Assembly (NCBI GenBank): GCA_029834535.1
Contig: JAQMWT010000204.1
Coordinates: 1 to 33,236 of the forward strand
Source: Chrysophaeum taylorii
Taxonomy: Eukaryota; Sar; Pelagophyceae; Pelagomonadales; Pelagomonadaceae
DNA length: 33,236 nt
Direction: 5' to 3'
Made by a program: the position numbers and the translations under genes. Within the stretch, counting starts at the first letter, position 1. Every line of letters begins with the position of its first letter. Below, one piece after another: positions 12,351 to 32,430 of the stretch. Under the pieces are notes generated by a model that did no database searches, was not told the origin of the DNA, and saw nothing but the letters and a program-made list of their open reading frames with translations.

Positions 12351-13146
12351 ATGGTGACCATGTTAAAGGGGGGACGGCCCAGGAGTTCGGTGAGCGACTA
12401 CGCGATCATAACGCCTAAGGGCGACGGCACGTTCGAATGGAGATGTGCGGCACGCGGCTGCACGCACGCACGCACGGGCATAAAGTTCAAGCCAGCTCAA
12501 TCTGTTGAGCACATCGTCCTGGATTGCATTCACCCACCCGATGGCGTTAAGTGCACGCTCGCGAGCAAGTCGTCAGCTAAGATTATCTCGGCGTGTGTAT
12601 GGGCCACGAATAAGCGGCCCGCCGCTGTCCACGACCTTCGCGCCTCGACAGCGACATCGTCTGCGCCTTCGTTGTTGCCGAAGACTGGGACGGCTCCGTC
12701 GCAAGTCGTGTCGAAGCAAGCTACTAGAGTTACCGAAGTCACTGACAGGTGTGATACGCGCCGTGCCAGTCTTATCAACGAGAAGACACAAATTCATGGT
12801 TGGTTGCGCTCTGCCTTTCAGCATCGTCAACACCTTTTTCTTCATCGATATGATCAAGGCGCTCGACGCGGCCTACGTTAAGCACTTGCCCAAGTCCGAG
12901 GCCTTTCGGCGCACGTGGGCGCCACGGCTTTTTGAAGAGACCGTACATAATATCAACAAGATGTGGTTCGCCACCGGCAACTTCGCTCGAATCACTGGGT
13001 TCGACGGCTTAAAGACCGAGGCCGGCGCTCAACTCGGGGTTAGCACGAAGAGTGTACATGGTGAGCTGACGTGGCGGTACGAAACCCAAACCCCCCAAAT
13101 TTGTGTGTTGTTTTTTACCCGAAAAAAAACAAAAAAACAGGTTTAA
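12351..13146 (+). pseudogene. hAT transposase remnant (BED-type zinc finger plus start of catalytic domain)
   Basis: Translation from the ATG at 12351 gives a short leader, then a BED-finger-like segment with pattern C-x4-C-x16-H-x4-C (WRCAARGC ... VEHIVLDC). BED fingers bind transposon ends in hAT transposases. After about residue 145 the coding sense moves to another frame near 12785-12800. There FMVGCALPFSIV leads into a stretch with YVKHLPKSEAF and then ITGFDGLKTEAGA. This matches the hAT pattern: a [LI]PF block, a Y..Ps block, then T..xDG with the first catalytic Asp near 13003. The rest of the RNase H-like fold, the other acidic residues and the dimerisation domain are missing. The frame change could be an indel or an unrecognised intron. 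Confidence 0.7.
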
Positions 13147-13889
13147 GACCCGGTCTTTACGGGCGTACAGTAGGGTGGGTTAAGGTTTTTCTCCATCGAT
13201 ATGATCAAGGCGCTCGACGCGGCCTACGTCAAGCACTTGCCCAAGTCCGAGGCCTTTCGGCGCACGTGGGCGCCACGGCTTTTTGAAGAGACCGTACATA
13301 ATATCAACATGATGTGGTTCGCCACCGGCAACTTCGCTCGAATCACTGGGTTCGACGGCTTAAAGACCGAGGCCGGCGCTCAACTCGGGGTTAGCACGAA
13401 GAGTGTACATGGTGAGCTGACGTGGCGGTACGAAACCCAAACCCCCCAAATTTGTGTGTTGTTTTTTACCCGAAAAAAAACAAAAAAACAGGTTTAAGAC
13501 CCGGTCTTTACGGGCGTACAATAGGGTGGGTTAAGGTTTTTCTCCATCGATATGATCAAGGCGCTCGACGCGGCCTACGTCAAGCACTTGCCCAAGTCCG
13601 AGGCCTTTCGGCGCACGTGGGCGCCACGGCTTTTTGAAGAGACCGTACATAATATCAACATGATGTGGTTCGCCACCGGCAACTTCGCTCGAATCATTGG
13701 GTTCGACGGCTTAAAGACCGAGGCCGGCGCTCAACTCGGGGTTAGCACGAAGAGTGTACATGGTGAGCTGACGTGGCGGTACGAAACCCAAACCCCCCAA
13801 ATTTGTGTGTTGTTTTTTACCGGAAAAAAAAACCAAAAAAACACGTTTAAGACCCGGTCTTTACGGGCGTACAATAGGGTGGGTTAAGG
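12836..13889 (+). repeat. Three tandem 351-bp copies of the hAT catalytic segment
   Basis: The ATG of ATGATCAAGGCGCTCGACG falls at 12850, 13201 and 13552, an exact 351-bp period (117 codons). The three copies differ by only a few bases; for example AACAAG becomes AACATG, and ATCACT becomes ATCATT in the third. Each copy holds about 79 codons of hAT transposase plus a tail with CCCCCC and A-rich runs and an in-frame stop, so each is a closed frame. The third copy ends at GGGTGGGTTAAGG (13889). Confidence 0.92.
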
Positions 13890-17538: not shown

Positions 17539-17729
17539 CGTCCCAGAGCGCCTCGCTCTCGCCTTCACGCGTCCCAAGGGCTCAAAAACGCCTAATAAGG
17601 CTCGTTTTGAAATCGGGCCTGGCGCTTTTCGATTTTTGCAAGGGTTTCGCGCTCAGCCCTGTAAAAAACCGAGGGGTACGGTAGTTTAAGTACACGTGAA
17701 TTCGGAAACACTATTGGCTCGGCATTAAG
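17539..17729. promoter_or_regulatory. Short divergent intergenic region upstream of the PP2A gene
   Basis: 191 bp separate the minus-strand transposon-like frame from the PP2A A-subunit start. It should hold the PP2A promoter and 5' leader. An ATTGG (CCAAT box on the minus strand) lies at 17713-17717, too close to the ATG to be confident. There is no clear TATA box. The segment near 17640-17664, read on the minus strand as AGGGCTGAGCGCGAAACCC, could be a terminus of the neighbouring transposon, but no matching end was found at its other side. Confidence 0.35.
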
Positions 17730-19865
17730 ATGGCCTTGGACTTTTCGCCCATATCGTTACTTAGGGAAGACTTGGGGAGCTCGGAACGATCGTCGCGACT
17801 TCGCGGAGTGCGTGGACTCCGGAGTATAGCAGTTGCTGTTGGATTTGAAAAGACGCGCGATGAAGTCCTACCGGCTATTCACGAGCATATAAGTCACGAA
17901 CAAGATGACGAAGTTCTTCACAAACTTGCATCAGTTTTGGGCGACTTTCTCCTTGAAATCGGCGGACCTGCGTACGTTACGTTGCTTTACACCCCACTTT
18001 GCGACCTCGCCCGGGTGGAAGAAACAATTGTACATGTTCGTGCAACCATGTCTCTCATTACAGTGTTTGATGCCACTAATGTTGATGGCGCGGAAACAAG
18101 CTCTACGTCAGACACTGTTGCAGCTTCGAATGTTGATTTAGCGATATACGTCATTCAGCAACTCTCTGGCATGAATGCTGCGTGTGATACAGTGTTCAGT
18201 CACACCGGTGGAACCCCAACGTCAACAACAGTTGGACTTGGAGCCAAGATGAGTGCTGCTCGACTAGTGGCTCCTGTAACTCGACTTTTGATGCGACTTA
18301 AGGCAGGAGAAGACAAACTCGCGTTAATCCGTGAAATGTTCCACAGGCTCGCATTTGACGAGGCACCATCTGTCCGACGTGCAACTGCGTCTGAACTTGG
18401 GTCAATTGCAATGGCTGTTGCTTCAGAGCAAAGTTTCGTTCATGACTCAGCAGACGTGGTATGGTCTCTGGTAACTGACGAGAACGATTTGGTTCGAGTC
18501 GTAGCACTGAGGACGCTTGGTATGCAAATCCTTGCGTGCTCAGATATTGCTGATATGTGGAGTGATGCGATGCAAGAGAGCAGATACCGTGATTTGTCCG
18601 GGAGTAGCAACACGGTGACACAAGCTAAAAATCCGAGTGTCAACACAGGTGATGTCGACACCGACGAAGCAACGCTTGCCCGACACAAGGAAGCAAACAT
18701 GAATGATGCTGTACTCAAAGACCCTGCAGCATCTATTTCTCTAGCTGCAGGTGAAGATGCGTCGTGGCGCGTACGCGAGGCTTTAGCGCAAAGTTTTGAG
18801 GGTTACCTGGCACACTACTGCCGCTCTCGTTCGCTAAATCAAATTGGGGCGGGGCAGTTGCTCACTATTTTCTCACAGCTATTTATTGATCGTGAAGTTG
18901 AGGTGCGCGTTGCCGCATATGAGGCAGTAAACGCAGTTGCTTCAGTTGCGCGGAACATTTTCGCTAGTCATACTCAGTGCATACCTTATGCCTGTCGTGG
19001 GGCGGATCCTGGTGAACATCCGACAGTTAGAATTGCTGCTGCGAAAGCTTTGACGCAACTATTAGCGACGATGAGCCCGATCTGGAAAAATAATGCAAAA
19101 TCAGTGGCGCTGAGTGAAGTTTGTGGTGGGCCTCCTGACGGCAGCGCACAGCGGACGATCTTCAGTACTTTGGAAATCAAGGTGTTCACTGACGATCACG
19201 TCGAGGTCCTCTTGGCTACGTTGCGTGAGCTCAAAGATGCTGTACCTTTTCTGGTCGGTGATGCGGCACAGCGCGTAGCACATCTTGTTGAGTCTACGGA
19301 GCACGATAATTGGCGTGTCAGACGTGCTTTCAATAGTGCGCTGCCCGCAGTAGCGGCTAAGCGTGGCCGGGATGCCTTTGAGTCTCAGCTTCTTGAAGGT
19401 TACGTACGCAGCTTCCATGATCGCATTTGTGAGGTTCGACAATCGGCAGTGGACGCTCTGGCCGCTTTGCGCGACTTGTCTATGATTGGCGACAGTTCAA
19501 ACAAACCGATATTTGACGCCGACTGGCTTATGGAGAAGATCGGGAAGCGTCTAAGCGAGCTTTATTTGACCATGTCATATTATGTGTACCGCATTACCAT
19601 TGTTCAGGCCTTCGAAAAGTTGGCAGCAAACTCGTGCCTCTCGGACCACAATATGGAAGCACTTGTGCTGTTCCTAAGCGATGCTGCACGCGATGATGTT
19701 CCGAATGTGCGTTTCACTGCAGTGACTGCCCTTGAGACTGCAGTATCTCGAGCGAATGATCGTGTGGTCAACAATTTTATCAAACCGATTTTGAACGAGC
19801 TTTTGAACTCTGAGCCAGACCCCGACGTTCAGTTGGCAGTTGATAAGGCATTTATGGTGATCTGA
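17730..19865 (+). CDS. PPP2R1: Protein phosphatase 2A scaffold (A/PR65) subunit
   Basis: 711 residues, one uninterrupted frame from an ATG to TGA. The A subunit is a HEAT-repeat solenoid that holds the PP2A catalytic subunit and the variable B subunits; it acts in the cytosol and nucleus. Residues 7-75 (ISLLREDL, RSIAVAVGFEKTRDEVLPAI) match the first HEAT repeats of PR65, as do IGGPAYVTLL and VEETIV at 77-101. Further repeat cores are VRRATASELG (215), VRVVALRTLG (255), WRVREALAQSF (346), VRVAAYEAV (392), NWRVRRAFNSALP, and the C-terminal VPNVRFTAVTALE and DVQLAVDKA. The usual length is about 590; the excess comes from Ser/Thr/Asp-rich loops near 112-135, 158-178 and 283-342. No intron, stop or frame break is seen, so it looks functional. 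Codon use is less GC-biased than in the flanking repeats. Confidence 0.95.
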   Translation: MALDFSPISLLREDLGSSERSSRLRGVRGLRSIAVAVGFEKTRDEVLPAIHEHISHEQDDEVLHKLASVLGDFLLEIGGPAYVTLLYTPLCDLARVEETIVHVRATMSLITVFDATNVDGAETSSTSDTVAASNVDLAIYVIQQLSGMNAACDTVFSHTGGTPTSTTVGLGAKMSAARLVAPVTRLLMRLKAGEDKLALIREMFHRLAFDEAPSVRRATASELGSIAMAVASEQSFVHDSADVVWSLVTDENDLVRVVALRTLGMQILACSDIADMWSDAMQESRYRDLSGSSNTVTQAKNPSVNTGDVDTDEATLARHKEANMNDAVLKDPAASISLAAGEDASWRVREALAQSFEGYLAHYCRSRSLNQIGAGQLLTIFSQLFIDREVEVRVAAYEAVNAVASVARNIFASHTQCIPYACRGADPGEHPTVRIAAAKALTQLLATMSPIWKNNAKSVALSEVCGGPPDGSAQRTIFSTLEIKVFTDDHVEVLLATLRELKDAVPFLVGDAAQRVAHLVESTEHDNWRVRRAFNSALPAVAAKRGRDAFESQLLEGYVRSFHDRICEVRQSAVDALAALRDLSMIGDSSNKPIFDADWLMEKIGKRLSELYLTMSYYVYRITIVQAFEKLAANSCLSDHNMEALVLFLSDAARDDVPNVRFTAVTALETAVSRANDRVVNNFIKPILNELLNSEPDPDVQLAVDKAFMVI

Positions 19866-22627: not shown

Positions 22628-22724
22628 GGCTGCCGTCGTCTTCCCAACGCGCTGCCCGTGCTTACATGTGGCGATCGGGTCGCTCTGTTTCAAGCGACCG
22701 CAGCGCTTGCACCGTGGGTCTTTG
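22628..22724 (-). other. Short minus-strand coding-like segment with a Cys pair, next to an LTR fragment
   Basis: Directly outside the inverted LTR fragment, the minus strand reads RCKRCGRLKQSDPIATCKHG and ends in a stop near 22630. The C-x2-C ... C-x-H arrangement resembles a small zinc-binding segment. It is only about 32 codons, so this may be chance. It is of interest because the other edge of the retroelement cluster (32431) also abuts minus-strand coding. Confidence 0.2.
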
Positions 22725-22812
22725 TAGAGACACGTAAAAATCACTGTGCCCCTGGTAGAGAATGATGGCAGTGGTAGTGTCGATCTTACGCCCTGTCTCT
22801 AACGACACAAAG
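22725..22812 (-). repeat. Inverted, truncated LTR (3' part)
   Basis: On the plus strand this reads TAGAGACACGTAAAAATCAC and continues through CTGGTAGAGAATGATGG to CGACACAAAG. It is the reverse complement of the 3' half of the LTRs at 23215 and 32246. It is head-to-head with the complete LTR starting at 22813, so the pair can fold into an imperfect stem. Confidence 0.85.
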
Positions 22813-23009
22813 TAGAGATACAAAATTCTATTTAGGGCTAGTACCCCCCCTATCCTAGGGTTAGCACCCTCTCATCTCACACTTAAATTCAGAAAACATC
22901 GCTGTGTTATCAACACCGTGCTGTCCTCGTTGCTAGAAACAGGACAATGGCAGCCTACCACTGCTCTCACTCTACCGAAGGGTAGCGCAGTAGAAATTAC
23001 TGTTCTCTA
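22813..23009 (+). repeat. LTR copy A (diverged, 197 bp)
   Basis: It starts TAGAGATACAAAATTC and ends TTACTGTTCTCTA, giving the 6-bp terminal inverted pair TAGAGA/TCTCTA. It is clearly related to the LTRs at 23215 and 32246 but more diverged, with an ATCGCTGTGT core shared by all. It is followed by a leader with CCAGTCCGGTATCGGTAGAG, shared with the LTR at 23215. Confidence 0.85.
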
Positions 23010-23091: not shown

Positions 23092-23217
23092 ATGACCACT
23101 CGCAATCAAAGCAACCAAGACCTTGCACGTAAGTTGTTAAACCAACAAACTAGGCATGACCAAGCCATGCAAGCGCAAGAAGCTCGCTTCAATGCCCAAC
23201 AAACTAGGCATGACTAG
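23092..23217 (+). pseudogene. Truncated Gag N-terminus of a second LTR element
   Basis: An ATG 82 bases after LTR copy A opens a Gln/Arg-rich, coiled-coil-like peptide of 41 residues (starts MTTRNQSNQDLARKLL). It ends because the first three bases of the next LTR, TAG, act as the stop. A 19-bp direct repeat (CCAACAAACTAGGCATGAC at 23142-23160 and 23196-23214) gives the repeated peptide QQTRHD. The leader before it resembles that after LTR B, but the peptide does not resemble the Gag at 24367. It therefore belongs to a different, related element cut off by insertion or recombination at 23215. Confidence 0.6.
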
Positions 23218-23400
23218 AAATAGAAAATTCCATTTAGGGTTAGGAACACCACCCCTTAACCTCACTCTCACACTTACAACCCCAAAATCGCTGTGTCGTA
23301 CACCGTGCTGCTCTTTGTGTCGGTAGAGGACAGGGCGAAAGGCAGCACTACCACTGCCACCATTCTCTACCAGAGGCACAGTGATTTTTACTGTTCTCTA
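23215..23400 (+). repeat. LTR copy B (186 bp), left LTR of the DNMT element
   Basis: It starts TAGAAATAGAAAATTCC and ends TTTTTACTGTTCTCTA. It is very similar to the copy at 32246-32430 over its whole length (shared CGCTGTGTCG, CACCGTGCTGCTCTTTGTG, ACCACTGCCACCATTC). The internal region begins GGTTTGGACCCAGTCCGG. A TGG four bases in could start a primer-binding site, but I could not match it to a tRNA. Confidence 0.9.
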
Positions 23401-24366
23401 GGTTTGGACCCAGTCCGGTACTGGTAGAGAAACGTCCTCCGAAAGACATCGATCTCGATCGACGTCTCGGACAAAGACTCAGGATTTCCAGAAAAGAGCA
23501 ATCTCCTGAAGTTCCTGGAAGTTTTAAGACCGTAGTCAAGTCTCATCGCTTGCTACTGGTGAAAAAGTGTGAACAAAGTGTGAAAGGCAACCAACAACGC
23601 GCAAAACACAACTGTGGCGGCAACTCCTGACCGCTAAGGCTTACCCTCCCTTTCTCGAGGCTTGATACCCGTTCAACGGGACGCCTTCCCCTACCTTCCT
23701 AGTGACATCATACCTCTCTCTTGTGAGAAGCATTCTTGCAGTATTCTTGTAGCATTCTTGCTATCATATACCATCTCTCCATCTGTTGAGAGGCCTGGTG
23801 AGCGTGAGCAAGGTGTGTGGCGAGCATATCCGGCCCCGAGTCCGTGTTTCCCTCGTTCAGCGAGGTCTAGGACGAGTCGGTGAGTACCCCCTTTGTCACC
23901 CGGGGGTCGGGAGTGGTTTTTCTGTGCCGCCATACGTGGTGGAGTACACGAGATCGTGCGACTACATCGGTCGCCGACGAGCGAGTGCTGCCGTACGTAT
24001 TGTATTACGTGGTCCGGATTTGTACGTGCGCCCTGATCAAGCACACGGAGTTCCTATGGACCGGTTTGCGTTGAGAATATACGCGAACGTTGTTTGTGTT
24101 CGTGCGATCCGAGTGACGACGAACACGCGTGCGAGTCGGAAATCGCAGCGCATTCTCCCGGGAATTGATTTTGGTATAGCTGAACGGTGGAAGCTGTTTG
24201 GCGAGTGGGATCGCTACCCACGGGCATTTTTGAATTGCCAGCGGATTGGAATTCCGCGAGTGCTGTTTTCACAGCGACAGATAGCGTTGTTGGAATCAAC
24301 GTGAATTACTTAAAGTGATCGGATCCGGACGTATTTCGAGATTCCTGATCAATATTTTGATACAGT
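23401..24366 (+). other. Long untranslated-like leader of the DNMT retroelement
   Basis: 966 bp between the left LTR and the Gag ATG. The first ~60 bases resemble the leader after LTR A (CAGTCCGGTACTGGTAGAG, GGATTTCCAG). A frame of 172 codons (23786-24304) has no ATG until its second half and no recognised domain; I treat the region as leader. It would be expected to hold the primer-binding and packaging signals. Confidence 0.5.
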
Positions 24367-25850
24367 ATGGATATAAACGCAGACGTGCGTGAGGAAGAAT
24401 CTCCTCCAGTTCTTCCCGCCGCCCCGGAGATAGGCCGCAAGGAAGGTGAATTAAGAGAGGCCGAGGAAGTCGACGTTGCTGACGTGCCCCCCGACGTGCC
24501 TCCGGATACTGCCATTTTTTCGCCGTTGAGTCCAACGACCCGGACCGTGGCGAGCGTGTTACGATTGAGCGCGGATCTGCAGCCCGAAGTCGACTTCGTG
24601 AAGACCTCGAGCGGAGACGTCGCGAAAATGAACGATTAGCTGAGCTCTTTGCCCGTGAAAGGGCTGAAGCGAAAGAGGAAGCGGCTCGACGAGAAGTTGA
24701 TATGCTCAGTGATGCCTTGCAGCAAGAGATTGAGACCTCGAAGACCCTACGTGAAAAGGCTGAACGATTTCGTCGTGAACGAGATGAACTGTTAGCCGAA
24801 CGTACGCGTCGGGAGAGTAGCCGCGAACGACCCGTGAGTCGACCCGAACCGGAAACGCCCGTGAGGCCGCCTGAACCGGAAAGGAACACTGAAACGGGGA
24901 ATGAACCTCCGCCCCGAGTCGATACGGAGACTGAGAGTAGGGCGGAAGTTGAGAATGAAGGTACGAAAATTTTACGGGGATTATCGCGGGGAATATCGCA
25001 GACGGTTTCGGACGCCTTCGAAAAGGGCAACTTGAGCCGATCCCGTCGACCCACTTCTAGTTTGAAGCCTGACAACTTCAAACTCGTCATCGACGGCCGA
25101 GATCAACGACAATTCAATTTGGATTCGGCAGCGATGATGCATACTTTAGCAGATGACCATTACTCGGTCGAGAAATTACGTTACCTCCTACCAGTGCATC
25201 TACGGGACACCGTTGCACCAATTTTTGAGGAACACTTCCAGAAATACGAGGAGCTCTGCGATGAGCTACCGCACGGTCCGTCGTTTTACTTGAAATTGGA
25301 TACTGACGATGAAGAGCATGGAGCCTCGGTTCGTCGCATCCGTCGTCTTAATGAGACGTATTGTGATAAGATTTTGGATTGTTTTAGATCGACTTGCCGA
25401 CCTCCGAGCACGCAGCAGGAGCTGCTCGACAAGCTGCGGAAGGTCACCCAGGCTTCAGTTCCGAAGAAGTCTGGGGAGCGGCACGTCCAGACGTATTGTA
25501 CCAGATTCCAATCGGAAGCCTTGGAGTTTTGTTCCGTGTCCAGCCGCACGATGGATGATGTCGATATCCTCGACCAGCTTATCAGTGAATTGACATCCAA
25601 GAAGTTGAGGGCCCGTGTGCGGACTATGAGGAGCGGACATCCTGATAGTTACTTGACTTTTCAGTCGATGGTGGCGCTTATTACGCGGCTCGAGAACGAC
25701 TTACGAAAGTTGATGGAGGAGGAGAAGGACCAAGGCCCTCCTAACCCGAAATCGAATAAACCGCCGCGAGGGCGGGAGGTCGAGCTATGGCCTCCGATCA
25801 ACAAGCCAAGCAAGATGCGGATAAACCGTCTGGGAATACGGATCCGCTGA
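24367..25850 (+). pseudogene. gag: Gag (capsid-type) of the DNMT retroelement, one frame break
   Basis: The ATG at 24367 opens an acidic, Pro-rich start. At the T-run 24515-24520 coding passes to the next frame (consistent with one lost base) and continues without a stop to 25850. The second part has a long charged Arg/Glu-rich coiled-coil-like stretch (about 24560-24830), a Pro/Glu-rich linker, then a helical core from NFKLVIDGRDQRQFN to LITRLENDLRKLMEEEKD that fits a retrotransposon Gag capsid region. Gag packages the RNA in cytoplasmic particles. The assignment rests on position between LTR and protease and on general character, not on a diagnostic motif. It overlaps the next frame (25787) by 64 bases. 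Confidence 0.65.
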
Positions 25851-26719
25851 TCTTACGAGAGCCTTTTTTGTGGGGCAAGAGAACGTGCAAGCACTGCGGG
25901 TTCTTCTGGACCACCCATGGTGAAGATGAACACGGAAATCGCGTGGTTTGCAACCGCGATCCGGATCGTTACTACTGTGCGATGTGGAAGCGTATTTGTA
26001 AGCAGAAGAAGCCACCCATATCGCGTTCCGATTGGGCGAAGCGTGATGATGCATCTCATGCGAACGCCACGCGCGGATCGGAGCCTTCTAATGAAATTCA
26101 ATCGGCCCTCGCCGATCTTGGAACCACAATGGCGACCATGGTGAGCGAGGTCAGAGGCATCAAGGATACTACGTCGTTTTCTACACGACAGCGAGACGGA
26201 CGATCACCTTCTAGACGATCGTCGCGACGACATCGAAGCCAGAGCCCTGATCGAAAAGCCAATACTCCTCAAAGCAGCCCGAGTCCCCGCCGTCACCGGA
26301 GCTCTAGTCGCAATTCGCGCCGGCGCCGACGTCATCGACATTACAATGACGAATATGACGGAAGTCGATATCAGGATAGTTCGGGACATTCGAGCGCAAC
26401 TTTCGCGTTCCAATCTTTATGCGACGCGCCGCCCTCGTCGGGTGTTGTCTTTTACCCGACGGCGCGCCCCGACCGAGTCTCCGATGATGCTGCCGATGTC
26501 GCCGTGACGAGCAGCCATCGTTTGCAACAGGAGCAAAATACCACCAACGCTCGGATCGTTCGGTGGCCTTCTACATCGCCTGTGGAAGCAATATCAGATG
26601 CTACTTTGGATTCTCCGCACTACTGGGAAGACTCAGATTCGGAGACCGACGAACCCATGCCGCAGGTTCCAGTCCCCCCATTCGTCAATGTGCATGTCTT
26701 GCAGGGCAGTTCACCATGA
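25787..26719 (+). CDS. Cys-rich and Arg/Ser-rich segment, probably the nucleocapsid part of Gag
   Basis: 310 residues from an ATG inside the end of the preceding frame, shifted by -1 relative to it. Near the start is C-x2-C-x17-C-x8-C-x6-C (CKHCGFFW ... RVVC ... YYC), likely metal-binding but not a retroviral CCHC knuckle. Residues around 130-190 are rich in RS/SR and poly-Arg (GRSPSRRSSRRHRSQSP, NSRRRRRHRHY), a basic RNA-binding-like region resembling splicing-factor RS domains. The C-terminal part is acidic and Pro-rich. By position it would be the nucleic-acid-binding half of Gag. Whether it was once fused to the upstream part (a one-base loss) or is translated separately cannot be decided here. 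Its stop at 26717 lies two codons after a GGCAGTT sequence. Confidence 0.55.
   Translation: MASDQQAKQDADKPSGNTDPLILREPFLWGKRTCKHCGFFWTTHGEDEHGNRVVCNRDPDRYYCAMWKRICKQKKPPISRSDWAKRDDASHANATRGSEPSNEIQSALADLGTTMATMVSEVRGIKDTTSFSTRQRDGRSPSRRSSRRHRSQSPDRKANTPQSSPSPRRHRSSSRNSRRRRRHRHYNDEYDGSRYQDSSGHSSATFAFQSLCDAPPSSGVVFYPTARPDRVSDDAADVAVTSSHRLQQEQNTTNARIVRWPSTSPVEAISDATLDSPHYWEDSDSETDEPMPQVPVPPFVNVHVLQGSSP
26705..26711 (+). promoter_or_regulatory. Candidate +1 ribosomal frameshift site between Gag and Pol frames
   Basis: The last Gag codons are CAG GGC AGT TCA CCA TGA. Downstream Pol is open in the +1 frame through this point (GTT CAC CAT GAT). GGC AGT T resembles the known Ty3 +1 site GCG AGU U, where a slowly read AGU is skipped by one base. 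The site is two codons before the Gag stop. Conservation in sister copies would be needed, since the frame relation could also be an indel. Confidence 0.3.
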
Positions 26720-27530
26720 TGACCTTAGACCTTTTGAGTTGACGTCGGGGACGACGTCTTCTTTTTCTACGGCCCCCCCCGAGGACGTTTTAGCCGAGAC
26801 CGTTTTAGCCGATGTTTTAGCTGATACAGTTTTGGTCGCAGCGGAGCCGACCACAGCGGCGCCGATGGAGGAGAAGTTGACGGGAATGTCCGGTTTGATG
26901 GACGAGAAACGACGATTGCCAGAAGAGATAAAGGCGGAAATATATGTGCCTCCGATTGAGGAGTGTCAGAATTTGTTGTCAGCGAAACTGGGGAATGAGG
27001 AAGCAGCCGAAGCGGCGAGAGCCAATATAGATTCAGAGGCGAGATGTGGAACGCCAGATATGGCAGCGGTGACGATGCAGATGCCGGTCGATGCGAAACC
27101 GGAGATACGATGTCATCACACTGCACTTTCGCCGAGCGATGGGGAAAGATCGAGCAAGACCTCATCACAATCGGTTGTTTGGACCCTGGTACACTTACGT
27201 TTATAGTTGGTCATATTTATAGACGACGAGACGGGCCGAAGTTCGCAACGACTTTAGGCGTGGATGGAATGGCTGATGTCTCCTATATTTGTCGTGGGAT
27301 GGTTGAAAAAGTGGCAAAGGATAGCATCATCCTTGACCGGGGCGATCTTCCAGTCGAGCGCACCCTGTACGGGTCAGGAATGAACAAGACGACTATCCAC
27401 AAATGGGTCGCATTGCGGATTGCGCTTGCGGACGACGTGGCCGTTCCAGTTGTTGCTATTGTGGCCGATACTAATCATCTATTTTTGCTGGGAGCGCGCG
27501 ATATTCGGGTGTTGGGAGCGCCATAGTGGA
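26709..27530 (+). pseudogene. Pol N-terminal spacer and retroviral-type aspartic protease, frame-broken
   Basis: The +1 frame after Gag encodes an acidic spacer (DVLAETVLADVLADTV, then PPIEECQNLLSAKLG) to about 27120. Coding then moves by -1 to a frame with VDGMADVSYICRGMVEKV (near 27260) and, at its end, FLLGARDIRVLG (near 27480-27520). Just after this a further -1 step near 27520 leads to IVDYPRNRIAF. This order fits a retropepsin: catalytic D-[ST]-G-A-[DE], then the hydrophobic LLG.D..  segment and the AxIDYxxxxIxF end. The active-site triplet here is D-G-M instead of DSG/DTG, so the copy is probably inactive or unusual. An intact protease would release Gag and Pol proteins. Confidence 0.6.
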
Positions 27531-28905
27531 CTACCCGCGAAATCGTATTGCGTTTCTCCGCACACAAGTCGCTTATGGGCGCAAGACGTTAAAGGTGCAG
27601 GATCGACGAGTCGATTCTCCGATTTTGACGTTCAGAACAACTTATGATGAGCGCAATCCCGTGGTAGTTCAGATTTATGGGCTACAGCACCATGCGATGC
27701 AAAAGAGCCTGAGCACAGTTGAGAACCGAGTCTACGCTCGCTTGTGCAAGATTGAAGACCTCCAGCGTCCACCGCCGAAACGACCGGGAGCTTCGACGAC
27801 TTGGGGAGTCCCTCCAGTTACGCCTTCTCAAAGTTCGAACAGCGATGCCTATGAAGTGATAGCCTATGCTGCGCGCACGATGAAGGTCGATCCTGGGCGC
27901 ACCTACTGCGTGCCAGTCGCTCTTTCAGAGCCCATGGAAACTGGGCCAGTTTTCGTTGCTACGTCTTCTGGGTACGAGCAACTTGGGGTAGTCGATGGAA
28001 TGTGTTCTTCTCCTGAGGATCATGATAAGTTCGCAGCTCGAGTGGCGATATCCTCTACCCAGGATGTGCCGACCGTGATTACTCAAGGTGAAGTCCTTGC
28101 TTTGGGCGATATTGTTCGTTTCGATGACGAGCTGAATGCTGAGACGGTCGACGATTTAACGAAGGATGGTGAAGCCGAATCTAACAAGGCTAACCTATCA
28201 TTCACTTTTTCGGTCGCAAGCCATCTTACTCAAGGCGATGCGGCTCCCGAACCGATGCTTTTGAGCTCGGAGCAGAAGGCGTCTCCTTCTGCCGATAAGA
28301 AGAAGAATTCTCGTCAAGAATCGCCCGGTAACAACGATTTCGACGGACGAACTGACGAGGAGGAAAAGAAATGCCGAGAAGTTACAGAAGGCGAGATTCG
28401 CCGAAGGTTCGAAAAGGTCCATTGGGTGCCGATCACGTATCGCAAGGTTGTGATGCTCTTTAGCGGCGCCGGAGGAAGTACTCTAGGGCTGCAACGAGCG
28501 AACGAGTTGTGCGGGACGTCGTTTCGAGTCGTCCTCGCTCTTGACTCTTCAACAGCTGCCAACAAGGTCCATCAGAAGAATTTTCCGAAGATACCTGTGG
28601 TTCAGCACACGCTCTGCGGACGATATGACTCGATCCTCCGATTGATCAAGGCTTATTTGCCTGAAGCGGAGTTGTCATCGTCGATGTGTATAGCGTCTCC
28701 ACCCTGCGTTCATTCCGCACTCTGCAACTTGACATCCAGAGATGTTGGCAGGGGTGTTACGGCCACTAACTGGACGATGAAGCTGTGCAAAATGGCTGGC
28801 TTCATGATGTGGCTGATTGAACAGGGGACGTCCATTATTTCTTATATAGCGCGCTTACACACTTACGTGTACGTCGTCCATTTTCATGATATCACGCAAC
28901 TCTGA
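27526..28905 (+). CDS. Pol segment: protease end, linker domain and N-terminal half of a C5 cytosine DNA methyltransferase
   Basis: 459 codons in one frame. It is not a separate gene: it opens with the last strand of the protease (DYPRNRIAF), so no start codon is implied. Residues about 110-220 are a beta-rich domain (MKVDPGRTYCVPV ... TVITQGEVLALGDIVRF) of the kind found between protease and RT in many gypsy elements. A charged Lys/Glu/Ser linker follows. From residue 305 the C5-methyltransferase fold starts. VVMLFSGAGGSTLGL is motif I (SAM binding). VVLALDSSTAANKVHQKNFP is motif II/III-like. ASPPCVHSALCN is motif IV with the catalytic Cys at residue 394 (codon 28705-28707). The frame stops at 28905, where the next frame takes over. 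The enzyme type transfers a methyl group from SAM to C5 of cytosine in DNA. Confidence 0.85.
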   Translation: MDYPRNRIAFLRTQVAYGRKTLKVQDRRVDSPILTFRTTYDERNPVVVQIYGLQHHAMQKSLSTVENRVYARLCKIEDLQRPPPKRPGASTTWGVPPVTPSQSSNSDAYEVIAYAARTMKVDPGRTYCVPVALSEPMETGPVFVATSSGYEQLGVVDGMCSSPEDHDKFAARVAISSTQDVPTVITQGEVLALGDIVRFDDELNAETVDDLTKDGEAESNKANLSFTFSVASHLTQGDAAPEPMLLSSEQKASPSADKKKNSRQESPGNNDFDGRTDEEEKKCREVTEGEIRRRFEKVHWVPITYRKVVMLFSGAGGSTLGLQRANELCGTSFRVVLALDSSTAANKVHQKNFPKIPVVQHTLCGRYDSILRLIKAYLPEAELSSSMCIASPPCVHSALCNLTSRDVGRGVTATNWTMKLCKMAGFMMWLIEQGTSIISYIARLHTYVYVVHFHDITQL

Positions 28906-29280
28906 TGAGCTCTCGCGTGCGATTGTTGGTTTCCAGTCACCCACTGCACTTGCAAGAGGCTCCGAAGACATGTGTGAACATGCAACAAAAATTTGCTGCA
29001 GCCTTAGGTTATGCTCATGAACGCCACGTACTTCAGCTGAATAATCTTGGCTCGTCCCGAGAAGCAACAGATACGGCGTACACCGTTACGCGAGTTCCTC
29101 TTCGTTTGGCACCGCATCGCTCGGACACTCAGCCTTTGACTCTCGAGATGACGGCCGAGTTGCTCACGATGCCGGTGGACCATGATTGGGCTAGCTTGTC
29201 TAAGACAGATTCGTTCAAACATTTAGCGTCTGTCGTCCCTCCAGACACGCTTGCGATTTTAGCAGTCGATCTGCACAACT
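28435..29280 (+). other. C5 cytosine DNA methyltransferase domain inside Pol (spans a frame break)
   Basis: The domain covers about 280 codons over two frames joined near 28850-28950. Seen directly: motif I FSGAGGSTLGL (28459), the Asp of motif II (28543), and motif IV PPC (28699-28707). In the second frame: LQEAPKTC near 28950, a possible degenerate motif VI (ENV); KFAAALGYAHERHVLQLN; LGSSREATDTAYTVTR near 29045-29095, a weak motif VIII candidate; LTLEMTAELLTMP (29136), motif IX-like; and HLASVVPPDTLA (29220), motif X-like, with the usual GN replaced. Little space remains between VIII and IX for a target-recognition domain. Position between protease/linker and RT means it would be translated as part of Pol. 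Function is inferred from motifs I and IV; the later motifs are weaker. Confidence 0.8.
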
Positions 29281-30341
29281 CCGTGACCAGAGGTTTCCGC
29301 CAAAGTGGCGAAGTCCTGCCGACAGCGTTAAGCCCGACAGATCGATCCTCTGAGCAGTATTTGCGAATCTCCGACACCACCTTTCGTCACGTACAGATTC
29401 CGCTGTTAAATACGCGTACTCGTGTCGTTAAGTGGGTGTCAAAAGATGATCCCCAGGATCCCACTAAATGGGAACCGTCAGAAGTCCCTATGCTTCCGCT
29501 TCCAACAGATGCGCCGGGGACGGCTCATGCTTTTTCTGCTGCCCCCCCCCGACAACCAACACAATCAAAAGTAGACGTTCCGCCGGATCCTGAACCTGAA
29601 CATGAGCCGAAAGTAAGGAGCGAGCCGAATGTGCGCGTCAAAGGTGAAAAGATCAATAAGAGCCACCCTGAGGTGAGGTTCAAATACGAAGAAAAGTTCG
29701 ATGTGCCATGGAAGGAAGCGCCGCGCGATGCGGGCGGTGTACCGTTACCGCAGACTCCCGAGCACGCCAAGGACAATGATGCGATGAAAGTCGTAATTCC
29801 GACGAAGGAAGAAGTCGAAAAGGTTGTTCGAGATCTGGGAATTCCCGACAACCCGTATCTGGATGATGATGCGAAGATGATGTTGAGCCACTGCGTGCAA
29901 TACGCGTGGGCTTTCTTTGATCCGATTATGAGACCCGCGGACTTGCCACCGGTTTCTCTGCGATTTAAAGACGCAAACCCACGACCGATCAAGATGACGC
30001 CTTATAGGTTGACGCCAGCAAAGCTCGAATGTCTCAGAAAGCAGATCACTGAGTGGTGTCGCGATGGAGTCATCCGACCGGCGAACTCTCCGTGGGGATT
30101 CCCTGTATTGATGCTGCCTAAGAAGGGAGCAGAGGCCGGGACGTCGAATGCTTTTCGTGCTGCAGTTGACTTGCGTCAGCTCAATGATCAGCTGGTCAAT
30201 GACAGTTGGCCGAATATTCGTCAAGATGATGCTTTGGCTTTTCTTGCCATGCGCCGTTGGCGGACGTGCATTGATATTCGATGGGGTTATCATACGCCAC
30301 ATATCATATTCCGATTAAAGCCCAGACACCGCACAGGCTAA
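28905..30341 (+). CDS. Pol segment: C-terminal half of the methyltransferase and N-terminal half of reverse transcriptase
   Basis: 478 codons in one frame, shifted by -1 from the preceding Pol segment; no separate start codon is implied. Residues 20-125 complete the methyltransferase domain (motifs IX and X-like). A Pro/Glu/Lys-rich linker follows (about 200-300). Residues about 355-475 are the fingers and start of the palm of a gypsy-type RT: PYRLTPAKLECLRKQI, GVIRPANSPWGFPVLMLPKK, FRAAVDLRQLND and CIDIRWGYH. The last contains the first catalytic Asp (motif A, near 30271). The catalytic YxDD box is not in this frame; the frame ends 70 bases later. RT copies the element RNA into DNA inside particles. 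Confidence 0.85.
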   Translation: MSSRVRLLVSSHPLHLQEAPKTCVNMQQKFAAALGYAHERHVLQLNNLGSSREATDTAYTVTRVPLRLAPHRSDTQPLTLEMTAELLTMPVDHDWASLSKTDSFKHLASVVPPDTLAILAVDLHNSVTRGFRQSGEVLPTALSPTDRSSEQYLRISDTTFRHVQIPLLNTRTRVVKWVSKDDPQDPTKWEPSEVPMLPLPTDAPGTAHAFSAAPPRQPTQSKVDVPPDPEPEHEPKVRSEPNVRVKGEKINKSHPEVRFKYEEKFDVPWKEAPRDAGGVPLPQTPEHAKDNDAMKVVIPTKEEVEKVVRDLGIPDNPYLDDDAKMMLSHCVQYAWAFFDPIMRPADLPPVSLRFKDANPRPIKMTPYRLTPAKLECLRKQITEWCRDGVIRPANSPWGFPVLMLPKKGAEAGTSNAFRAAVDLRQLNDQLVNDSWPNIRQDDALAFLAMRRWRTCIDIRWGYHTPHIIFRLKPRHRTG

Positions 30342-32245: not shown

Positions 32246-32430
32246 TAGAGATAGAAAATTCCACTTAGGGTTAGGACCCCCCCCCCCTTAACCTCACACT
32301 CACCTACAACCACAAAATCGCTGTGTCGCACACCGTGCTGCTCTTTGTGTCGTTAGAGGACAGGACGAAAGGCAGCACTACCACTGCCACCATTCTCTAC
32401 CAGAGGCACAGTGATTTTTACTGTTCTCTA
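32246..32430 (+). repeat. LTR copy C (185 bp), right LTR
   Basis: It starts TAGAGATAGAAAATTCC and ends TTTTTACTGTTCTCTA. It is near-identical to LTR B apart from a longer C-run and a few substitutions, which supports a fairly recent insertion. The preceding bases GCGAGGGCG are a weak polypurine tract. The following bases are CTCATCTTCG. Confidence 0.92.

Follow-up and report, generated by a model that had tools for sequence, protein, structure and literature searches.

Is the DNA methyltransferase (DNMT) encoded within an LTR retrotransposon of the pelagophyte Chrysophaeum taylorii a regular component of the element and, if so, does the element benefit from it through methylation of its own DNA or in some other way? 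The locus in question lies in a contig of 33,236 bp (JAQMWT010000204.1, analysed at its full length and hereafter called the window), where a first-pass annotation placed a C5-cytosine methyltransferase (C5-MTase) between the end of a retropepsin and the reverse transcriptase (RT) of a gypsy element flanked by two matching LTRs.

The DNMT-bearing Gypsy family and its copy in the window

A search of the genome (70.8 Mb, 697 contigs) with the DNMT query yielded at least 150 places, from 828 first-look candidates, at 76–100% identity; these counts include duplicates because some places are probable haplotigs (C25 and C521, as well as C10 and C297, share near-identical positions). Two subfamilies are apparent, the window-like A and B, which is about 76–81% identical to A, and some of the frames are open over up to 3067 aa. 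In one such locus (L009, subfamily B), a single open frame encompasses an N-terminal region, the DNMT (from 1446), RVT_1 (2001–2165), RNaseH, H2C2, and rve, and Ty3 is the best PDB relative of its RT, in agreement with the earlier recognition of gypsy RT fingers in the window. Taken on its own, the window copy could suggest that a fragment of a host gene was inserted by chance into a single element; the domain, however, occurs in at least 150 places, is represented in both subfamilies despite their divergence, and, where paired with an RT, keeps a constant distance from it. This refutes the explanation, to which we assign virtually no weight.

The RT query, likewise, detected at least 150 places, from 942 candidates; at least 71 of these 150 have a partner among the DNMT places listed, and in 69 of the 71 pairs the gap between the two is 768–833 bp. 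(Contig C696 has RT places too, eight of them spread over 10,962–56,289, as an organelle genome with intron ORFs might have.) Seven of the 79 unpaired RT places, picked non-randomly for long frames or high identity, were inspected: five contain the DNMT (L038–L042, some of them frameshifted, and L039 with a loss between the protease-like region and the DNMT), and two (L036 on C510 and L037 on C322) are devoid of both the protease-like region and the DNMT, with gag and the pre-RT stretch in an open frame. A query based on such a derivative produced at least 40 places, from 315 candidates; among the 22 within reach of a compared RT place, 11 are located 155–215 bp from the RT (derivatives) and 11 at 2.7–3.1 kb (full elements), an even split that is biased inasmuch as the query was drawn from a derivative and distances were taken to 61 of the 150 RT places. 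Thus, distance to the RT adds nine derivative places to L036 and L037, with C25 and C521, both among the 11, apparently representing one allelic locus. The expectation that other copies would share the order of protease-like region, DNMT, and RT was borne out, other than in the derivatives. Given that derivatives without the protease-like region and the DNMT have multiplied, they would seem to be mobilised in trans by full elements.

The class assignment of the family to Ty3/Gypsy combines the LTRs, the RT-RNaseH-integrase order, and the Ty3-like RT, as observed in L009 and L025 together, the window copy itself being truncated and lacking this combination. L025 has an LTR at both ends, in direct orientation and with 88.5% identity between the two, and is the one copy in which such a direct pair was seen. 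With the DNMT inside the element ORF, many copies, and purifying selection (see below), this is a DNMT-bearing retrotransposon family.

In the window, the element occupies the forward strand. Its 5′ LTR spans 23613..23934, with ends read as TGTGGCGGCA...TGCCGCCATA; in the comparison of copies, position 23613 coincides with the start of the 5′ LTR in L014, L019, L024, and L025 and with the start of the 3′ LTR in L018, L021, L022, and L025. The gag-like region (24367..26719) consists of ORFs in several frames, is covered by a single open frame in L014, and produced no Pfam family match. The protease-like region (27108..27560), where long homology with subfamily B begins, is the retropepsin end of the first-pass annotation; no family or PDB match was obtained for it in the window or in the other copies scanned, and it is designated by position and by a pattern discerned by eye (VDGMADVSYI ... 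LGARDIRVLGA). The putative active-site triplet of the protease-like regions, also read by eye, is DGM in L009 and DGG in the Copia locus L031 described below; the usual triplet of retroelement proteases is DSG or DTG. The C5-MTase-derived domain follows at 28438..29297, and the N-terminal part of the Ty3/Gypsy RT (RVT_1 in longer copies) at 29697..30294. Homology to other subfamily A copies begins, within the fetched stretches, at 23612–23613 in most cases (23621 in L018) and ends at 30292–30294, inside the RT; in the window, neither an RNaseH nor an integrase nor a 3′ LTR could be assigned to this element. Because the reading frames are broken in several places, including one near 28897 within the DNMT, and homology is lost at 30294 within the RT, the window copy is not intact but a dead, that is, decayed and truncated, member of a Ty3/Gypsy LTR retrotransposon family.

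The two matching repeats initially taken for the LTRs of the element, 23215..23400 (the supposed 5′ LTR) and 32246..32430 (the supposed 3′ LTR), both on the forward strand and 92.5% identical, do not belong to it. This 186-bp repeat is dispersed (all 40 scored places, out of 460 candidates and including the two in the window, match), forms three other same-strand pairs spaced by 8.0–8.3 kb, and is absent from the ends common to the other Gypsy copies, and was rejected as the LTR for these reasons. A diverged third copy, a Copia-like LTR at 22812..23009 on the same strand (68.9% identical to the right-hand repeat), is followed by a leader and an ATG-started stretch of 41 codons (23092–23214). 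With permissive scoring, the end of this LTR together with the leader matches the DNA upstream of the gag of a Copia-DNMT locus, L033 (84% over 86 bp, E = 4.6e-19); the leader is also 75% identical to L032 over 68 bp. The supposed 5′ and 3′ LTRs, both probable Copia-like LTRs, match L033 as well (70% over 81 bp, E = 1.8e-7, and 69% over 58 bp, E = 8e-5, respectively), again with permissive scoring; at default scoring, the 186-bp repeat had no match near the Copia gag, so that the link comes mainly through the diverged third copy. All three repeats thus appear to be Copia-like LTRs, and the Gypsy copy, which sits just downstream of Copia-like LTR sequence, probably landed beside or within a Copia-like element.

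Other parts of the window have features of their own. The third Copia-like LTR adjoins a fragment of the 186-bp repeat in inverted orientation (22724–22812); a 351-bp unit is present in three tandem copies at 12835–13889; the first 12,000 bp are GC-rich and dense in repeats, with copies of a repeat family often about 2 kb apart; and a 721-aa ORF (17700–19865) contains HEAT repeats (E = 3.2e-17) and resembles the PP2A A subunit in a weak Pfam match.

Identity and active site of the domain

The conserved beginning of the domain, motif I (YRKVVMLFSGAGGSTLGL), starts at 28438 in the window translation, and motif IV, SPPC with the catalytic Cys, is found at 28696..28707 (forward strand), its PPC exactly at 28699–28707, where it had been reported (the numbering of C5-MTase motifs is that in general use). 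Recovery of the C5-MTase family by profile searches, on which the original assignment was to be judged, was achieved with several profile collections. The Pfam family PF00145 matched the window ORF with E = 4.9e-4 and 20.1 bits, under the 22-bit cut-off, which was passed in one of the five copies scanned (L020, 25.3 bits; the others were the window, L009, L010, and L014). The NCBIfam dcm profile matched L009 and L024 with E = 1.4e-3, far below its cut-off, and two PHROG families of DNA methyltransferases matched L009 (9.1e-7 and 1.7e-6) and L024 (5.7e-8 and 1.3e-7). A profile comparison of 11 Gypsy copies with 13 C5-MTases (12 chosen among database matches and the host DNMT2-like protein) scored 97.9% over motifs I–IV, with 37% identity in 78 columns including PPC; none of 100 column shuffles reached the profile score (best, 24.8 against 94.4), and the reversed alignment scored 12.5. 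The significant similarity covers about 80 residues: beyond motif IV, the C-terminal half of the domain showed none (alignment probability on its own, 1.3%). When a protein database was queried with the P0002 DNMT region, 3866 candidates were obtained, none at E ≤ 0.001; a profile search with A1, covering 7609 candidates, gave two weak matches, at E = 0.016 and E = 0.52; the matches listed in the genome-wide PF00145 search include no Gypsy copy; 25 and 158 pattern matches in viral contigs contained no relative of either the Gypsy or the Copia domain; and the AlphaFold model of A1 was unusable (mean pLDDT 35.6). Taken together, the profile matches identify the first half of the domain as C5-MTase-derived, and we are close to certain that a DNMT-derived domain is part of this Gypsy family.

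The affinities of the domain bear on its potential substrate, which, if not the element cDNA, might be host DNA or RNA (the genomic RNA of the element or its tRNA primer). Three of the four weak PDB matches are of the DNMT2 type, although they cover motifs I–II only (best E = 0.079), and an RNA substrate has been suggested for a LINE DNMT that did not act on DNA in yeast (PMC5890265). However, the better matches are PF00145 proteins of bacterial look: the Gypsy domain scored 97.6% against P0006, as compared with 11.7% against the host DNMT2. The C5-MTases of the P0006 group (bacterial where the organism is named) share 36–40% identity with the Gypsy domain over motifs I–IV and possess GGPPCQ, ENV, and RxR, with no significant similarity to it after motif IV. 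A substrate of this alternative kind would seem unlikely.

The active site was examined in 27 copies, including the window and two probable haplotigs. SPPC is retained in all 27. The motif I pattern occurs in 24, of which three have one or two changed residues; in the remaining three copies (L017, L019, and L041), motif I is a variant by one or two residues. The Glu of the motif VI ENV, in contrast, is absent at the aligned place in all 27: the presumed position, 28864..28890 (forward strand), reads YVYVVHFHD in the window, with VVH where the remaining 26 copies, YVYVVN(F/L).D, have VVN. This placement leans on context, given the weak C-terminal alignment, which is not significant on its own, and the disagreement between two methods: the global profile alignment sets LHPYVYVV-NF opposite LKPKFIVMENV, and MAFFT puts ENV a few residues later, where there is no Glu either. 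In place of motif VIII, QxRxR, all 27 copies have NN.GSSR, subject to the same weakness of the C-terminal alignment. The motif IX/X-like segments noticed originally are discernible by eye in the window (LTLEMTAELLTMP and ASVVPPD), and SVVPP, which all 27 copies share, is set against GNAVPP by MAFFT, albeit with no significant score when taken alone. Thus, the alignments reveal no recognisable motif VI Glu or motif VIII in the Gypsy domain; in M.HhaI, the catalytically important residues include Glu119 and Arg165. In five subfamily B loci (L009, L010, L013, L039, and L041), a second same-strand frame is open over 255–271 codons in the DNMT area, which could reflect either overprinting or chance.

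Selection, methylation traces, and the possible role of the domain

Pairwise Nei-Gojobori estimates were obtained for 18 loci, with stop-bearing or poorly covered loci dropped region by region, leaving 5 A and 10 B loci for the DNMT. The dN/dS of the DNMT across copies, proposed at the outset as an informative measure, is about 0.2 within subfamilies (0.20 within A, 10 pairs; 0.175 within B, 45 pairs), which indicates purifying selection on the domain. Between A and B, dN is 0.048 for RT, 0.118 for DNMT, 0.162 for the post-linker, 0.242 for the protease-like region, and 0.268 for the linker; with dS saturated at about 2, the corresponding A–B ratio of 0.054 is unreliable. The ranking of regions by ratio within A is not clean either, the RT, at 0.312 (15 pairs), being above the DNMT and the post-linker at 0.759 (3 pairs). 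Could the domain, then, be a passenger or a structural spacer with no biochemical role, kept for the folding and cleavage of the polyprotein? That derivatives without the protease-like region and the DNMT have multiplied in the genome is compatible with dispensability of this kind, but the domain changes less between the subfamilies than its neighbours (dN 0.118, compared to 0.268 for the linker upstream and 0.162 for the post-linker downstream), and we consider the spacer explanation about as unlikely as an RNA or host DNA substrate.

If the element methylated its own copies, loss of CG sites might be expected. The window element has a CpG observed/expected ratio of 1.26; four other Gypsy loci, flanks included, range over 1.19–1.29, the two Copia loci give 1.02, and other stretches of the window 1.11–1.47. 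In pairwise comparisons of eight subfamily A copies, C/T differences per site amount to 0.042 at CG, 0.042 at CA, 0.053 at CC, and 0.067 at CT. Thus, neither the CpG ratios nor the C/T differences of element copies show methylation-driven CG loss, a result that weakens self-methylation but may come from a test of little power, the other DNA of the host being CpG-rich too.

An active self-methylating enzyme would mark the cDNA of the element such that it appears host-like or is hidden from cDNA surveillance, as has been suggested of SymbioDIRS-Dnmt3 and KnitGypsy-Dnmt3. There is a precedent in that retrotransposon DNMTs are reported to methylate CG sites de novo (PMC5890265). This possibility, which was also the original interpretation of the locus, gains from the purifying selection on the domain and from the retention of elements on which catalysis would depend, PPC in 27 of 27 copies and motif I in almost every one. 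It is weakened in that neither a motif VI Glu nor QxRxR was found and CpG decay was not apparent. We consider it a serious contender, if a less probable one than an altered or lost canonical activity. The reading that we favour, with a probability of roughly 0.4, is that the domain is maintained and serves the element, its canonical methylation having been altered or lost; the conservation of the catalytic Cys in all 27 copies and of motif I in nearly all speaks against such a loss, as does the uncertain placement of motif VI. Longer members of the family encode one polyprotein, with the C5-MTase-derived domain between the protease-like region and RT-RNaseH-integrase; under this preferred reading, the domain would travel with the RT inside the particle and act on the nucleic acid of the element itself during cDNA synthesis or integration, possibly by binding SAM and/or cDNA, whereas canonical C5 methylation by it has probably weakened, changed, or disappeared.

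A second methyltransferase family and the relation to known systems

The PF00145 search of the genome yielded at least 57 places (123 of 474 candidates were scored): two genes and 55 places in a second element family, assigned by matching to 103 of the methyltransferase places of that family. One gene, on C634, we take to be DNMT2-like from a CFT signature recognised by eye, with what is presumably an LHC-like stretch, also seen by eye, antisense beside it; the other, on C621, encodes a DNMT and SNF2 and is, by content, DNMT5-like. Outside the elements, these two are the only genes among the PF00145 matches listed, from which intron-split or divergent genes can escape, as the Gypsy copies did; DNMT6 has been reported in Pelagophyceae (PMC9998398).

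The second element family (L031 on C96, L032 on C314, and L043) has a gag-like ORF, a protease-like region with DGG discerned by eye, and a methyltransferase located between that region and the integrase. The integrase match in L031 is weak (rve, E = 0.0048, below the cut-off), and L043, downstream on the same contig, encodes RVT_2 (E = 9.7e-40); the integrase thus precedes RVT_2, which is the Copia order, in the one copy tested, with the caveat of the weak rve match. In L043 (3–1052), the RT reads SVDG at the position of YVDD, the motif expected in Copia RT, at least in this copy. PCQ and ENV are retained in the Copia methyltransferase of L031 and L032, the two copies in which these motifs were read, and at least 152 matches to it are counted genome-wide, some of which are pieces of one locus. 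In profile comparisons, it matched C5-MTases over motifs I–VIII (77.6%, E = 1.9e-5) but not the Gypsy domain (0.2%), and for this reason we read it as an independent capture, distinct from that in the Gypsy family. Tentatively, then, two classes of LTR elements would each have captured a different C5-MTase, the Gypsy one persisting as a conserved pseudo-methyltransferase that serves the element without ordinary cytosine methylation and can be supplied in trans to derivatives that have lost it; DNMT3L offers a loose comparison.

Gypsy elements with a DNMT have been known since 2018, the example being KnitGypsy-Dnmt3 of Klebsormidium nitens, with a Dnmt3-related domain in the Pol ORF (de Mendoza et al. 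2018, PMC5890265). The C. taylorii family resembles it in being an LTR Gypsy with multiple copies and a DNMT within the Pol ORF under purifying selection; KnitGypsy-Dnmt3, however, has conserved key residues and repeats arranged in a DIRS-like fashion, whereas the family described here has no ENV or motif VIII, has direct LTRs, and resides in a stramenopile. SymbioDIRS-Dnmt3 and SymbioLINE-Dnmt of Symbiodinium are comparable in that DNMT copies number in the hundreds and that several element classes of one genome carry DNMTs, but these are DIRS and LINE elements, with key residues reported as conserved, not Gypsy and Copia (PMC5890265). DNMT3 has been found in LTR Copia and DIRS elements of streptophytes and dinoflagellates (PMC12344493), a Copia location like that in our second family, although the domain there is a DNMT3 and the C. 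taylorii Copia methyltransferase is known as a C5-MTase by profile. Sola1-1_Ec32 of Ectocarpus (PMC12477816) is likewise a stramenopile transposon with a DNA methyltransferase, but it is a DNA transposon with a ParB-like protein, and the predicted enzyme is of the N4-methylcytosine/N6-methyladenine type, not C5. C5-DNMT retrotransposons have thus been described in dinoflagellates and streptophytes (PMC5890265, PMC12344493); a literature search by title and abstract opening, with most subscription papers and preprints outside its coverage, found none in a stramenopile, and the word start "transpos" is absent from the main text of the C. taylorii paper (PMC10366177). The Gypsy capture is likely to be independent of the known ones. 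What appears to be new is the host lineage, the pelagophyte C. taylorii; new as well are a domain recognisable over motifs I–IV only, with motif I and PPC kept and no ENV Glu or motif VIII, the further capture, unlike the first, in a Copia family, and the multiplied deletion derivatives without the protease and DNMT.

Two captures in one stramenopile, independent as they seem to be, would mean that retrotransposons acquire DNA methyltransferase domains repeatedly, and more than once per genome. The full elements, the domain-less derivatives, and the Copia family, with PCQ and ENV in L031 and L032, provide natural comparisons within one genome, which make it testable whether the domain benefits the element through methylation of its DNA or in another way.
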